In this document: positions 11,927 to 46,971 of the stretch, one piece after another | How positions within the stretch are numbered: position 1 is the stretch's first letter | How the letters are laid out: each line of letters opens with the position of its first letter | Assembly (NCBI GenBank): GCA_937998875.1 | Contig: CALLBO010000035.1 | Location: 62,001-126,000, forward strand | Direction: 5' to 3' | Length of the DNA: 64,000 bases | DNA from: an uncultured Granulosicoccaceae bacterium | GTDB taxonomy: Bacteria > Pseudomonadota > Gammaproteobacteria > Granulosicoccales > Granulosicoccaceae | The notes under the pieces: model-generated | What the model was told of the DNA's origin: nothing | The model's input: only the letters and a program-made list of their open reading frames with translations | The model's database searches: none | Program-made: the position numbers and the translations under genes

Positions 11927-13351
11927 CTAAGATAGTCCGGCGTCGATCACTGCAGTTATCTCCTCCAGCTCATGGAAGAGTGCTCGGCAATCAAACCACA
12001 GTGATTCTTGACTCACCCGCCCGACTATCGGTGTGGTTAAATAACGGAAAAGCGAGGCGAGTTTGTTTGCCGGGTTTTCTGAGTCACCAGTGATAACCAC
12101 GGCATAACTGTCCAGCGTTCTGGTTGGCAGCGCGCCACTGCCGATCTGGCTTTGGCATGATTGAACCGATACCTCCAGCTGTGGCAATTGTTTTGCCACC
12201 GCCTTCTGTAGCTTAACCGCGGTTTTCTTTATGTCGTCCGGTTTGCGTGAAAGCAGTGTCAGTGCCGGAATTGTATCCACCAGTTTTTCAGGTTTTGCAT
12301 AGAGTTTAAGCACTGCTTCTAACGCAGCCAGCGTAACCTTGTCAAGTCTCATTGCCCGCTTCATCGAGTTTTTTTCTATTAACTGGATAAGGTCTGCACG
12401 TCCGGCAATGATGCCACACTGCGGGCCACCCAGTAGCTTGTCGCCACTGAAGGTTATGATATCCGCCCCGTCGGCAAGTGCTTCGCGAGCAGTTCGCTCA
12501 TAGGGTAAGCCCAGGTTGCTGAGGTCAGTGAGCGTACCGCTGCCAAGGTCATCAATGAGCGGAATGTTATACTTGTGGGCAAGATCAGCAAGCTCTGTTG
12601 CAGCAATACTTTTAGTAAAGCCGTTAATCTCATAATTGCTGGTATGCACCTTCATCAGCGCTGCAGTTTTTTTATCTATTGCAGCTTCGTAGTCATGCAA
12701 ATGGGTTCGGTTTGTCGTGCCGACTTCACGCAGCTTGCACCCGGCTTTTTCCATGATGGCCGGTACTCGAAATGATCCGCCAATTTCAATAAGTTCGCCG
12801 CGTGAGACAACCACTTTTCTTTTCGGCGCGATACTATTTAGTGTTAAAAGTACCGCTGCAGCATTGTTATTGACTGTGGTTGCGGCTTCAGCACCTGTGT
12901 GTTTGCAAATCCATGCTTCGACATGGTCATCACGTCTGCCGCGTTTACCTGACGCGAGGTCAAACTCCAGATTGCTGGCACCACGACTCACTTCGATCAT
13001 CGCTTCTATCGCAGATGCAGGGTAGGGCGCACGCCCAAGGTTGGTGTGTAGAATCGTACCGGTGAGATTGATAACACGCTTAAGCGAAGGGCTGAAACTA
13101 CTCTGCAGCAGGCTTGCTACTGCGGTATGCAGAAGATTAATCACTGCTGTTTCACTGACTTCGTGTGTTTCAATTTGTGTCGAGGTGGCAGTATCCTTAT
13201 TTACAAGATCATGTCGAACGCGATTGAGATGATTTCTGACTTCATTTACAACGACCTCTCGACCGTAGCACTCACTCAGATCGGTAAACACTCCGGATTG
13301 CAGTATTTTATCCACAGAAGGGAGCTGATTTGGATGTGTGAGGCTCTCCAC
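11927..13351 (-). CDS. selA: L-seryl-tRNA(Sec) selenium transferase
   Basis: SelA, 474 residues, converts Ser-tRNA(Sec) to Sec-tRNA(Sec) with selenophosphate using PLP. The N-terminal domain reads LPSVDKIL; the PLP fold has INLTGTILHTNLGRAP, NNNAAAVLL and the lysine motif FSGDKLLGGPQ (Lys305). It starts with GTG at 13351, directly after an in-frame stop, so there is no earlier choice. It lies 103 bp downstream of, and in the same direction as, the selenoprotein gene, suggesting an operon. selC and selD are not seen in the window and must be elsewhere. Confidence 0.96.
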   Translation of the reverse strand: MESLTHPNQLPSVDKILQSGVFTDLSECYGREVVVNEVRNHLNRVRHDLVNKDTATSTQIETHEVSETAVINLLHTAVASLLQSSFSPSLKRVINLTGTILHTNLGRAPYPASAIEAMIEVSRGASNLEFDLASGKRGRRDDHVEAWICKHTGAEAATTVNNNAAAVLLTLNSIAPKRKVVVSRGELIEIGGSFRVPAIMEKAGCKLREVGTTNRTHLHDYEAAIDKKTAALMKVHTSNYEINGFTKSIAATELADLAHKYNIPLIDDLGSGTLTDLSNLGLPYERTAREALADGADIITFSGDKLLGGPQCGIIAGRADLIQLIEKNSMKRAMRLDKVTLAALEAVLKLYAKPEKLVDTIPALTLLSRKPDDIKKTAVKLQKAVAKQLPQLEVSVQSCQSQIGSGALPTRTLDSYAVVITGDSENPANKLASLFRYLTTPIVGRVSQESLWFDCRALFHELEEITAVIDAGLS

Positions 13352-13454: not shown

Positions 13455-14624
13455 TTAGTCTCGCCACAAGTGCGGCACAATGAATTTTAATCCAATATCT
13501 GCAACCTTGGTATTGTCTGAGTCCATAAAACGATGTCTTAGTTCTCTGAGTCGACTGCCCAGTAAAGAGTCTTTCCAGAACCAGTCATAGATCTGCCTGC
13601 TTGATGGATTACCGCGACCTGCCAGTGCGGCTTCAATGTAGTAGGCTTTCAAATCATCTATTGCGAGCCGAAACATCAGGCGATCTGAGATGTCTGATCT
13701 GATTGGTTGGAATTCATTGTCCAGGTATGTCTTGTCTACCAAAGCGGCCAGTTCATCAATTGCAATTGCAGATACGCCAACTGCGGTTCTGCTTTTATCA
13801 ACACACTGTCGCTGATAGAACGGTTTGAGTTCGGTGACCTCGTCCAAAATTGCTTGGTGAGTCCCGATGTCAGGCGCTTGCCAATCTTTATCTGCGATGC
13901 GTCGTGGATCTTCTGTTTCAAAGTCTATCAGGCACTGTTTGTCCGAGTTTTCGACGAGCCGCAGTGCTTTGTCCAGCACTGCACGTTGCAATTGCGGGTT
14001 CGCGGGTGCTCCGAGTGGGCGGCCGAGTTCAAATGGTACCCACAGAGCGCGCGGCGGACGTATTTTTTCAAGATGCAATTTAACCAAACCAATAACCACG
14101 GTGCTTATACCTGCCTGTTCCAACCAATGTGCAATTGCGCTCACGGCGCGAGTACAGTTTGGTCAAACAGGAAGCAGACAAGCAGTATTTATGTTGGCTG
14201 CGGCTAATTCATCGGCAAGGCGCAACACGTTTGATTGCATTTTCTCAGGTGTAGTCGCGCCCATGAACGCGTAATGTCGCACCGCTGCTTTTTCGATAAC
14301 CTTGTCTTCTGCCATCTCCTTTAATATTGCTCTGGGGAATACGGTGTTAATGTCTTCGGCAAATGCCGTTCGATCAAAATTAATTGACACGTGGTTCATC
14401 AGGATGTCCCGGTCCGGGCACGCGTTGTCAAAGGGTCTGTAATCGGCGCTGTCACCTGGAATGTTCTCGGCCTTGCGCTGCATCAATCCTGCGGATGAAA
14501 TAAGGGCCACACGACACTGGTTCAGCGGTCTAGCGGGCACAAATGCGGCGTCGTCTATTGATGGGCATTCCAGCGTTTCGAGCCCCTCACGCTGATTTGC
14601 TGTCAATTCGTCGAGTCTAGCCAT
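13455..14624 (-). CDS. Selenoprotein of the GrdB (glycine/sarcosine/betaine reductase B) family, in-frame UGA
   Basis: A single 389-codon gene read through TGA at 14163-14165 (codon 154). The upstream part ends NINTACLLPV; after the TGA the same frame continues PNCTRAVSAIAHWLEQ and runs 235 further codons to TAA/TAG-type termination at 13455. The junction is therefore U-P-N-C, a UxxC redox motif at the place where GrdB-family proteins carry it. RHYAFMGATTPEKM upstream and RPPRALWVPFELGRPLG downstream are family motifs. ATG 14624 has a GGAG Shine-Dalgarno six bases ahead. selA follows and selB is divergent. A two-gene or pseudogene reading is unlikely given the conserved junction. Clostridial GrdB works in reductive glycine cleavage; the role of the proteobacterial relatives is unknown. 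Confidence 0.88.
14140..14152 (-). promoter_or_regulatory. Candidate bacterial SECIS hairpin
   Basis: Eleven nucleotides after the UGA, the mRNA reads CUCGC-GCC-GUGAG, a five-pair stem (one G-U) with a three-base loop starting with G. Bacterial SECIS elements sit right behind the UGA inside the coding region and have a small apical loop with an early G, so size and place fit. The lower stem was not worked out, and recognition by this SelB is inferred. Confidence 0.5.
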
Positions 14625-14756
14625 GGTTTTCTCCGTGATTGCGGTATTTTTGTGTGTGGGACAGAATACCGGAGTTATCGATATGCTTATTTATGTTTCC
14701 AGCAACGAGTATAGAGGGCATTCGTCCAAAGAGGCCTTCACCATGATAAAGAACTT

Positions 14757-16694
14757 ATGATAATTGCGACAGCCGGGCATGTTGATCATGGAAAAACCTC
14801 ACTGGTAAGAACTCTTACCGGCATTGATACGGATCGTAACCCGGAAGAAAAAAGACGGGGATTGACGATAGATATCGGCTTTGCCTACATGCAGGATGAT
14901 GACGGGCGGAATATAGCAATCATTGACGTACCCGGTCATGAAAAATTTGTTCGCAATATGATCGCGGGCGTTGGGCTTGTTGATATCGCGCTGCTAGTGG
15001 TCGCGGCAGATGATGGTCCAATGCCGCAGACAATCGAACACATTGCCATTCTTCAACTAATGAACGCCAAACTGATAGTGCCCGTTATAAGTAAGACAGA
15101 TCTGGTAAGTAGTGAACGCCAGTCACAGGTGGTAGATGCGGTAAGTGGGTTGCTACAAAGTGCTGGTTTGCCGACCACTGACTTCTATTCAATGTCTGTA
15201 TTGGATAAAAGTGCAGTGTCGAATCTGAAGGCCGGGCTATTGGAACTTATAAAGTCGTTGCCGCACCGAAGGGTTGGCGGTTATTTTCGTATGGCAATCG
15301 ACCGCTGTTTTACTCTTGATGGCAGCGGCACAGTAGTGACGGGCACAGTGTCCTCCGGCATGCTTGAAAAAAATGATATTTTGACGCTGGTCTCGGATAA
15401 CTCATCCGAAGGCGATTCTGCCCGTGCCCGTGGCATACATGCGCAAAACACGGAAGCAACTGAAGCCTCAGCGGGGCAAAGGTGTGCGATAAATTTGAGT
15501 GGCAGCTTATCCCGGGAGATGCTGCGACGCGGTGGATGGATGGCGGCAGATGCATTTGCAGTGCGGACTAAAGTAGTGGATGTAGTTCTTTCTGCGGCGT
15601 TTTCCCCCGGGGAGGATACTACTCATAGTAAACGAAAAGTAAGTCACTGGACGCCTGGGCATCTTCATCTCGGTACAGCAGATATACCGTGTCGTATCGC
15701 TTTGCTCGATACGTCAAGCTTTACCTACGGACAAACTGTCTTAGCGCGATTAATCTGTGAAAGGACAGTTACTGCGTCGCACAACGACAGGTTTGTTCTT
15801 CGCGATCAGTCCGCACGCTCCACCATTGCAGGGGGAAGAGTTCTTGATGTGTTCCCCCCGCGGCGTGGCCGCAGTCAGCCGGCAAGGCTTAAATACCTCG
15901 CAGCGTTAAACACCAGCACGGCTGCTGAAGCACTGAGCAACTTGCTGGAATTACACTCTGGTGGGGTGGAGCTTACTAAGTTCGCGCGCCAGTTTAATCT
16001 GCTTGCTGTTGAAGTCGCAGAGCTTGTCGAAAATAAAGCGCTTTGCGTTGTTAACACTGCGTCGGGTAAATGGTGTTTAACTACTTCGCAAAGTGGAGAC
16101 ATTGAAGAAAAAATTTTAGAAACGTTACTTTCTATGCATAAAGACAATCCTGATCTGGCCGGCGTCGGGCTGGATGTTTTGCTTCAGGCAACGAACAGAG
16201 AATTTGACAAGGAGGTGCTTGAATACTTTGTACAGAAACTGATTAAACAGAACCGGGTGGTTCGATTGGCCTCGGTACTTCGTCACGCTGAGCATCGGGT
16301 GCAGATGAGTCAGTCAGACGATGAATGCTGGAAAAAAATTGAACGTGAGCTTTTCACCGCCGGGCAAACGCCGCTCAGACTGACTGAACTGGCTGGTGTA
16401 TTGAATAAGGAGCTTTCAGAGACCCGACAGTTTATGAACCACTGTGTGGCCCATGGCAAAGTGTTTAAGGTAACGGACAATCGTTACTTTTTACCGGCTA
16501 CGCTGAAGGAGCTGGCCGAGATCGCCGAGAGTCTGAGTGCTGCGGATAACCTTACTGTTGCTGAATATCGCAACAAAACGGGTATGGGCAGAAACCTTGT
16601 TGTCGAGCTACTGGAGTACTTTGATCGTTATCGATTCACGCGCCGGGTTGGCGATAAGCGAACGGTGTTAATGACGTCTGCGGAGGCTTTTTAG
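14757..16694 (+). CDS. selB: Selenocysteine-specific elongation factor
   Basis: SelB, 645 residues, brings Sec-tRNA(Sec) to UGA codons preceding a SECIS. The GTPase domain has G1 GHVDHGKT (7-14), the switch [11 protein letters not shown] and G3 DVPGHEKF; G4 is SKTD instead of the usual NKxD. Beta-barrel domains with SGTVVTGTV follow, and the last 200 residues are winged-helix repeats that bind SECIS RNA ([24 protein letters not shown]). Start is ATG 14757; divergent from the selenoprotein gene over 132 bp, which must hold both promoters. Confidence 0.97.
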
Positions 16695-45233: not shown

Positions 45234-46787
45234 TTATTTAGTCATTACGTCCCGCGGCAATTTGATATTGAATTGTTCACGTAGAGAGCGATCAGTTTCT
45301 TCACTGATGTGAGCTGGAAAGTGGCCGGTTAATATTTGATCAACCCGTTTCTTCGCCTCTTCCAGTAGTATCGGTCGGCCTTTCTCCGCCCATTCCTTGG
45401 GACTGTTGCGATCTCCGATTTCGGGGTATAGATATTCCTTCTGCATCAGATTCATGGTTTGCTCATGTCCCAGGTAATGCAGTGGTCCGTCTACACAGAC
45501 GTCTCGCATAGTACTAATAGATAGTGTTTCATCGTTAACTTCAATCCCTTTTACGGTGCGATTGATTGCCCCAAGCATGTCGTTGTCTATCACATAGCTC
45601 TCAAGGCAGGCACCGAGCAGGCTGCCATGCATACCAGCGGATTCGTAAATTAAATTTGCGCCTGAATGTGCAGCAAGTGTGACCGTATAACCCTTTTCAT
45701 ACCCTGACTGCGCATCGGGCAGTTTTGCATCCGCCATGCCTGCGGCCACGCCGGTTGGCAGGTTATAGTAGCGACCCATCTGTCCGCAGGCAGCCATGAG
45801 GATTGCCTGTTCACCACTACCACCGCTCATCGCGCCGGTGCGTAAATCTGAAACAAACGGCCAGGTCCCGAAAATAGCCGGATGTTTTGGTTTTAGTGCA
45901 TTGACGTATACCAGTCCTGCAAGAACTTCTGCGACTGCCTGTACCACAGACCCTGCAACCGCAGCCGGGCTGGTTGCACCTGCCTGGCCGGCAGAAAGCA
46001 GCAATACCGGCATACCGCCATAGACAGCAGACTCAAGACAGGCGCAGGCATCTTCCGCAAAGCGCAGGGGTGGTACGACAAAGCAACAGGACATCGACAC
46101 GAACGGCCTGTCGCGCCAAGCCTGCTCAGAGCCTGCAATCTGGTGCAGCATCTTGAGCGATTCATCCACATGCTCGGGGAGTACCCAGCTTGTGCCAACA
46201 TGCTTTGAAGTACCTGCTACCGATGCATACATGGTATTCAAATCAAGGTCAGCGGGTTCAATCATGTCTCTGGCGACTATTGAACGCTGAAAGAAATGAA
46301 TGTGATCGGACTGATCAACAATGCGCGCAATGTCATAGAGATCTTTGAGCGTTGAATCGCGATACTGGCGGTTTTCAACATCGACAATATGTACGGCTGC
46401 TCCAGCGGTGCCGAAGTACATCTTCGAATCACTTATCTGAATATCGTGCTCAGGGGATTGGCCGCACAGCGTAAAGTCGCGTGCACAGTTGGCAATGGTG
46501 TCTTCAACCAGTGAGCGCGGGAAGTGCAGGCGGTCGTCTTTATAGACGCCGCCAACTTTTTTAACGGCATCCACACAGGAGGGTATTGCCTGTGACAGTC
46601 CGATTTCCTCAAGGACGTGCATCACCGCATCATTAACCTTGGCGATGTCAATTTCGTTCAGCGGTGCGAAACGTCCGCCGGACATACCCGGGTTAACAGC
46701 ACGTTCATCGAATGCCAGTGGGGCTGCACGTTCTGCTTTTTTGGCGGCTCGTGCGCCACGGCGTGGTCTGCGTTTTGGTTCGTTCAT
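45234..46787 (-). CDS. MttB-family (trimethylamine/betaine) methyltransferase, non-pyrrolysine
   Basis: 517 residues from ATG 46787 (MNEPKRRPRRGARAAKK); the frame extends 33 codons upstream without family similarity. The body is an MttB TIM barrel: FAPLNEIDIAKVNDAVMHVLEEIG, KMYFGTAGAAVHIVD, TSWVLPEHVDESLKM, GTWPFVSDLRTGAMSGG and GLxxAGMADAKLPDAQSGYEK-like core. It has no in-frame amber codon, so it belongs to the non-Pyl branch, some of which demethylate glycine betaine or similar quaternary amines onto a corrinoid protein. No corrinoid protein gene stands beside it and the substrate is unknown. The strongly basic first 25 residues are unusual. Confidence 0.85.
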   Translation of the reverse strand: MNEPKRRPRRGARAAKKAERAAPLAFDERAVNPGMSGGRFAPLNEIDIAKVNDAVMHVLEEIGLSQAIPSCVDAVKKVGGVYKDDRLHFPRSLVEDTIANCARDFTLCGQSPEHDIQISDSKMYFGTAGAAVHIVDVENRQYRDSTLKDLYDIARIVDQSDHIHFFQRSIVARDMIEPADLDLNTMYASVAGTSKHVGTSWVLPEHVDESLKMLHQIAGSEQAWRDRPFVSMSCCFVVPPLRFAEDACACLESAVYGGMPVLLLSAGQAGATSPAAVAGSVVQAVAEVLAGLVYVNALKPKHPAIFGTWPFVSDLRTGAMSGGSGEQAILMAACGQMGRYYNLPTGVAAGMADAKLPDAQSGYEKGYTVTLAAHSGANLIYESAGMHGSLLGACLESYVIDNDMLGAINRTVKGIEVNDETLSISTMRDVCVDGPLHYLGHEQTMNLMQKEYLYPEIGDRNSPKEWAEKGRPILLEEAKKRVDQILTGHFPAHISEETDRSLREQFNIKLPRDVMTK

Positions 46788-46971
46788 CAAGCGTCTTTCG
46801 GTTCGTGGCCTCAATTCGGCCGCACATAAACTTGTCCTGATGTTGATATCACGAATAGCGGTTGGCAGGGTCGGGAATTGCGACAACTAATGTATCGCAA
46901 CAGGCAAGACAGCGACAGGAAGGTCTGCCGCTGTTCTATTCTTCCAGTTTGGTACTGATCCCGGTGCAGAA

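Follow-up and report, generated by a model that had tools for sequence, protein, structure and literature searches.

The proteins closest to the one described here are PrdB and GrdB, in whose chemistry selenocysteine (Sec) is the nucleophile and a pyruvoyl subunit activates the amino acid. "Proline reductase PrdB" is also among the most abundant selenoprotein labels in the surface ocean, which is odd for an enzyme of anaerobic fermentation. The Sargasso Sea and GOS surveys, as far as their accessible text goes, report 42 and 235 "PrdB" selenoproteins with a UxxC motif from the surface ocean (PMC1088965, PMC2398784). The fused selenoproteins listed in the accessible part of the later survey are Prx, Prx-like 2 and 3, and UGSC, with PrdB not among them, and Ndh-SelD fusions are described there too (PMC2398784). 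The Sec trait itself is reported, in the accessible part of a third paper, to be transferred along with a client gene, mostly fdhA (PMC1794560). Since both marine "PrdB" selenoproteins and client cassettes appear in these texts, the kind of locus is known. New here are the long form of the protein, the absence of PrdA alongside it and its constant position within a Sec cassette; no description of the long subfamily or its cassette was recognised in the accessible open-licence PMC literature.

The locus lies in a window of 64,000 nucleotides (the whole stretch analysed) from an uncultured Granulosicoccaceae bacterium. Minus-strand translation from the ATG at 14624 to the stop at 13455 yields 389 residues with a single UGA, around which the product reads LLPV-U-PNC-TR (Table 1); the plus-strand frame over the same interval is closed by stops, and a GGAG (14631–14634) stands 6 nt ahead of the ATG. 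Two same-frame ORFs split by one TGA had been proposed in the initial annotation, and mechanical ORF calling gives exactly these two pieces; the frame and coordinates are as claimed, and the strand, which the annotation did not give, is minus. Its reading of the V-U-P-N-C junction as a UxxC motif agrees with the read-through translation. Likewise, the GTG-started ORF was rightly called spurious, as its "start" is codon V161, which is GTG in 23 of 23 sequences and falls inside the loop of a predicted SECIS hairpin. When both strands of the window were scanned for pairs of open stretches, each 140 codons or longer, with one lone TGA between them, this split pair was the sole match. The interval almost certainly encodes one intact selenium-containing protein, with the UGA presumably read as Sec.

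Table 1. Features of the locus, in coordinates of the window.
Feature	Position	Strand	Remarks
Long PrdB/GrdB-like selenoprotein gene	13455..14624	-	389 codons + stop, read-through translation
First ORF piece	14163-14624	-	153 aa, ATG start
Spurious GTG-started ORF, gene-caller product	13455..14144	-	229 aa
UGA codon 154, in frame, putatively read as selenocysteine	14163..14165	-	TGA in 24/24 long-form sequences
UxxC motif U154-P155-N156-C157	14154..14165	-	U154, P155, C157 invariant in 23 long-form proteins
Predicted SECIS hairpin	14130..14156	-	stem columns 10-20 with 26-36 from UGA
Hairpin loop CGUGA	14141-14145	-	17 nt past UGA
N-terminal alpha/beta domain, ~residues 25-235	13920..14552	-	homologous to PrdB and GrdB C-terminal half; TIGR04483, TIGR01917; model pLDDT 90
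C-terminal domain, residues 240-389	13458..13907	-	predicted all-helical; absent from PrdB
selA	11927..13351	-	TIGR00474 566 bits (cut-off 267.9); 103 nt downstream of gene
selB	14757..16694	+	TIGR00475 392.1 bits (cut-off 242.25); divergent, 132 nt upstream

Elsewhere in the window, a 62.5-bit Rfam PYLIS_3 match (45638–45737, minus strand) lies inside a minus-strand ORF of the MTTB family (45234–46886), which contains no in-frame stop; its score for the pyrrolysine TMA methyltransferase is 346.5 bits, below the cut-off of 525. This ORF probably encodes a non-pyrrolysine MttB relative, the PYLIS_3 match reflecting mere homology.

The UGA occupies one alignment column in all 24 long-form sequences, namely 17 linked to selA (own included), five second copies and two from another gammaproteobacterial family; the invariance of the motif in Table 1 was counted in 23 proteins, leaving out the partial L021. 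Because the match to PF07355 ends at residue 148, that model cannot test column 154, and four plasmid-encoded true PrdBs of clostridial and enterococcal origin were used instead. All four have Sec at the column aligned with U154, and the Cys-type relatives have Cys there; homologues without Sec or Cys at this column, one of the two refuting outcomes named in the initial annotation, did not turn up. Besides the UGA, the long-form frames contain no further stops. In L008/L009, the sole pair with unsaturated dS and the one on which the rates rest, dN and dS are 0.028 and 0.72 before the UGA, 0.034 and 0.56 after it, and 0.041 and 0.61 in the C-terminal extension. The half downstream of the UGA is, by these substitution rates, under purifying selection, and the decay past the TGA that the initial annotation had named as its other refuting outcome is absent. 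Its reading of the gene as a selenoprotein is borne out.

The codons just past the UGA are frozen at synonymous sites (GCC in 23/23, GTG in 23/23 and CGC in 21/23), within a region predicted to form a SECIS-like hairpin, a stretch of which reads CGCGCCGTGAGCG. The mean codon entropy of the six conserved columns there is 0.72 bit versus 1.82 in 39 others, the comparison columns being conserved ones with at least four codons, and an entropy as low was obtained in 1 of 100,000 permutations. In the predicted hairpin, which we drew from single-sequence folds using general rules for SECIS loop and distance, 90.5% of cells are paired in the 21 of 24 sequences aligned, compared with at most 61.4% once the partner side is slid; one pair has changes on both sides in nine sequences, and in L031, L099 and L100 the base of the stem has a G-G mismatch. 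An unguided consensus fold gave six pairs, none with double changes. Folding energy is weak support for the hairpin: it lies below the mean of synonymous shuffles in 23 of the 24 sequences (L011 being above), it passes the 0.05 level in only three (L014, L018 and L020), and in three the hairpin, when constrained, does worse than the average shuffle.

The gene is flanked by selA and selB, both scoring above their cut-offs (Table 1), as the initial annotation had stated. The own genome has the full Sec set, with tRNA-Sec (selC) at C29:2670-2761 (71.8 bits, UCA anticodon by ARAGORN) and selD at C24:85932-86855, above its cut-off, in a 725-aa frame. Among the 48 genomes of the family, the 17 that contain selA are the same 17 that contain the long selA-linked gene, and the other 31 have neither; these are kin, so the Fisher value of this co-occurrence cannot be taken as an independent probability. 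In all 17, the gene and selA are neighbours; selB is also present in the stretch in 15, the remaining two ending at contig ends. Gene order varies, selB being divergent in the window's genus and in G001, while G004 and G005 have a collinear gene-selA-selB arrangement with tRNA-Sec nearby; the distance between the gene and selC is at most 250 nt in G041 and G004 and about 1.7 kb in G005. A tRNA-Sec of at least 63 bits occurs in 19 of the 48 genomes, i.e., in those 17 and in G012 (C92:15091-15182, 78.1 bits) and G022 (C67:2626-2717, 66.3 bits). Neither selA nor the long gene was found in the latter two among the 48 genomes searched, so the Sec trait may be decaying there or the assemblies may be incomplete.

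The linkage extends to another gammaproteobacterial family (f154). In G310 and G405 the UGA gene is likewise close to selA, separated from it by a transposase remnant in G310 and by a histidine kinase gene in G405; no selB was found in the 18 kb covered in G405. Distances of the long protein and of SelA correlate over 153 pairs (Pearson 0.95), a value that carries no control for background kinship and so only fits shared descent. As to other clients, a SelW-like CxxU gene with an in-frame TGA is present in 12 of the 17, including the own genome (L125, G000:C101:1293-1481, minus strand, CMQU motif), so the long PrdB-like protein is not the sole Sec client in most of them. It is nevertheless, of the Sec families searched, the one found in all 17. 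Over the 21 genomes searched, SelW-like genes number 13, with one TGA in each, and the formate dehydrogenase matches, in 20 of the 21, carry no in-frame TGA.

Matches to the protein occur in 24 of the 48 family genomes. In 17 of these the best match is a copy with one TGA (16 full-length, own included, and one cut by a contig end), and in seven only the Cys type is present; selA was found in none of the seven. Three loci (L001, L002 and L003) are the same records as G017, G006 and G014 and were counted once. Five of the 17 genomes have a second long copy with one TGA, 31–35% identical, located away from selA and bearing the motif IP[VI]UPFC (L029-L033). The neighbours of the second copy differ, a GFA-domain gene adjoining it in G006, and no partner common to all the second-copy loci looked at was found. 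The 23 long Sec proteins group together in the tree with support 100/99, apart from PrdB and the Cys type, and fall into selA-linked (94/90) and unlinked (99/98) subgroups. The position of the root was not relied on, because the program warned of long branches meeting (PrdB with the long Sec group).

Short Sec forms were seen in two f92 genomes, and G535 has two more (L103 and L104). The G535 copies have TGA at the Cys place and are nested among Cys forms; they are probably recent Cys-to-Sec changes, by which Cys and Sec would have been exchanged more than once. The own genome also encodes a Cys-type GrdB-family paralogue (L057:2412-3386, G000:C8) next to a TPR-like gene of 431 aa. In 7 of the 15 Cys-type loci looked at, the gene comes after a Liv-type ABC transporter on the same strand; no such transporter was found in the own genome's 12-kb stretch around L057. 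The transporter link hints at small imported substrates for the Cys type, not for the long form itself. Further afield, matches at E <= 1e-20 were obtained in 8 of 369 genomes in a class sample and 16 of 398 in a phylum sample, both samples being thin, and the long Sec forms in these were those of the own genome, G310 and G405. Viral contigs gave six pattern matches and no relatives, and the E. coli genomes gave no match to the long PrdB-like protein.

The initial annotation had placed the protein in the GrdB family. This holds at the superfamily level, but the nearest described family is PrdB: TIGR04483 (PrdB) scores 77.8 bits over residues 27–229 (model positions 19–223 of 238; equivalog cut-off 300), compared with 37.5 bits for TIGR01917 (GrdB; cut-off 602.2), of which positions 220–422 of 431 alone are matched, and 33 bits for TIGR01918 (cut-off 65.45). 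The PrdB model ranks first, with the GrdB, GrdF and GrdH models behind. Against PF07355 (gathering threshold 22), the match is borderline, the joined protein scoring 20.2 bits and the first piece alone 23.5. TIGR04483 and PF07355 each match 21 of 22 long sequences, PF07355 at E <= 0.001. With PrdB the protein shares the homologous residues 27–229, Sec at the aligned column and a UxxC motif with a helix-borne Cys. It differs from PrdB in being 389 rather than about 240 residues long, in its extra helical domain, in the lack of any PrdA found, and in having selA and selB as neighbours instead of prdC-prdA; genuine prdC-prdA-x-prdB operons are present on two of the four plasmids from which the true PrdBs were taken. 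On a 21-kb Terrisporobacter plasmid (L116, NZ_CP117524.1), prdC-prdA-prdB is accompanied by a selD that contains a single in-frame TGA. GrdB, GrdF and GrdH (PF07355, TIGR01918) are homologous to the long form through their C-terminal half (positions ~210–430), and the long form lacks their N-terminal half. The Cys-type GrdB-family proteins of proteobacteria, about 30% identical, have CPVC at the place of UxxC, but are shorter, contain no UGA and form a separate clade.

The marine "PrdB" selenoproteins belong to the same Pfam family and have UxxC (PMC1088965, PMC2398784); the surveys label theirs proline reductase, and they may or may not be of the long form. The cassette resembles the selA-selB-selC cassettes with fdhA, as described in the accessible text of PMC1794560, in having a client beside selA, selB and sometimes selC. 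It differs from them in its client, which is PrdB-like, the formate dehydrogenase matches here being without UGA.

AlphaFold2, run with a 22-sequence alignment and with Sec as Cys, predicted the whole protein with a pLDDT of 90.0 and a pTM of 0.89. In the model, an alpha/beta part reaches to about residue 235, Sec154 starts a helix (155–170), and six helices span 259–381; the C-terminal domain modelled alone has a pLDDT of 91.5. Foldseek against the PDB returned nothing at E <= 0.001 for either the whole model or the C-terminal domain (best E 4.2 for the latter), and a PDB sequence search with the profile of 22 gave no match to E 0.1. No Pfam family matched the own C-terminal domain. Among 24 C-terminal domains, four families matched one member each (best E 0.0047), which we take as chance. 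A hutG match on Pseudochrobactrum plasmids (tblastn with the C-terminal domain, E 3e-3) was lost in the profile search.

Taken together, we consider it probable that the locus is an intact selenoprotein gene, that its product is a one-chain Sec/Cys reductase working without a pyruvoyl partner, and that it is a resident client of the Sec-decoding cassette. The UGA would be decoded as Sec with the aid of the hairpin directly downstream, by SelA and SelB from both flanks and by the tRNA-Sec and selenophosphate synthetase whose genes lie in other parts of the genome. Two domains would make up the product: a PrdB/GrdB-type alpha/beta domain that bears Sec and Cys where a helix begins, and a helical C-terminal domain specific to the family. 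The Sec154 selenolate may attack an electrophilic small molecule or a disulfide, Cys157 would resolve the intermediate by forming a selenenyl sulfide, for which a cellular dithiol would serve as reductant. Unlike in the PrdA-PrdB and Grd complexes, no pyruvoyl subunit would be needed, and the C-terminal domain may shape the substrate site and help bind another electrophile. The suggestion of partner-free reduction has the absence of PrdA as its sole basis and would be compatible with an unrelated partner encoded elsewhere. Client gene and Sec cassette would be inherited and lost together.

Two readings would deny the gene its Sec altogether, and each has next to nothing left in its favour. That the gene has decayed, or that faulty sequencing or assembly introduced a stop into a Cys gene, might be suspected from a draft assembly of 121 contigs and from a UGA that is one base away from the Cys codons. 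Against this, all 24 sequences have the UGA at one and the same codon and no other stop, purifying selection continues past it and the synonymous sites beyond it are frozen; the conserved UGA rules out a pseudogene or sequencing error. Equally negligible is a UGA read as tryptophan, or simply leaked through. The frame would indeed be open under such a code, but the window contains one such long frame pair, the relatives have Sec or Cys and not Trp at the column, and the selenium machinery is complete; we rejected a tryptophan code.

As for function, a clostridial-style subunit of a D-proline, glycine, sarcosine or betaine reductase acting with a pyruvoyl partner would explain why PrdB is the best model and why the Sec column is identical. 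We regard it as very unlikely. PrdA was detected in none of the 21 Sec-bearing genomes (17 of the family, two of f154 and two of f92), though in both control records, which makes a D-proline reductase role very unlikely; PF09338, the component B partner, was found in none of the 21 and PrdD in none of the 48, though for neither did a positive control match. With scores also far below the equivalog cut-offs, a true D-proline or glycine reductase was rejected. Somewhat less improbable, though still unlikely, is a part in the selenium economy, the protein serving as a carrier, sensor or reductase to supply or protect SelA/SelD and not as a mere client. It might then form a self-contained selenium module with (selC)-selA-selB, in which it would handle selenium, for instance by reducing or carrying the donor for SelD/SelA, or would sense it; we hold such a module to be similarly doubtful. 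The protein adjoins selA in 17 of 17 and is present in exactly the selA-positive family genomes, the long form showed no further conserved neighbour of a catabolic kind, and the other clients vary, the SelW-like one being in 12 of the 17. On the other hand, the control genome E. coli has selA, and E. coli is known to make selenoproteins without a long PrdB-like gene. Five genomes have a second long copy away from selA, and the linkage is explained if a client stays next to the machinery that serves it, an arrangement described for fdhA in the accessible text of PMC1794560. Were the module real, the "PrdB" selenoproteins that abound in the oxic ocean would in part be selenium-handling proteins, not proline reductases.

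Returning to the one-chain reductase as a resident client, ordinary gene callers miss the gene, reporting a protein that is cut short and, within the predicted SECIS loop, a false GTG start. What emerges is a long PrdB relative in marine-type gammaproteobacteria, without PrdA and with an extra domain of its own, that appears to be inherited as a unit with the selenocysteine machinery. If the ocean "PrdB" proteins are of this long kind, their label would be misleading, and they would represent a common marine selenoenzyme without a known reaction.
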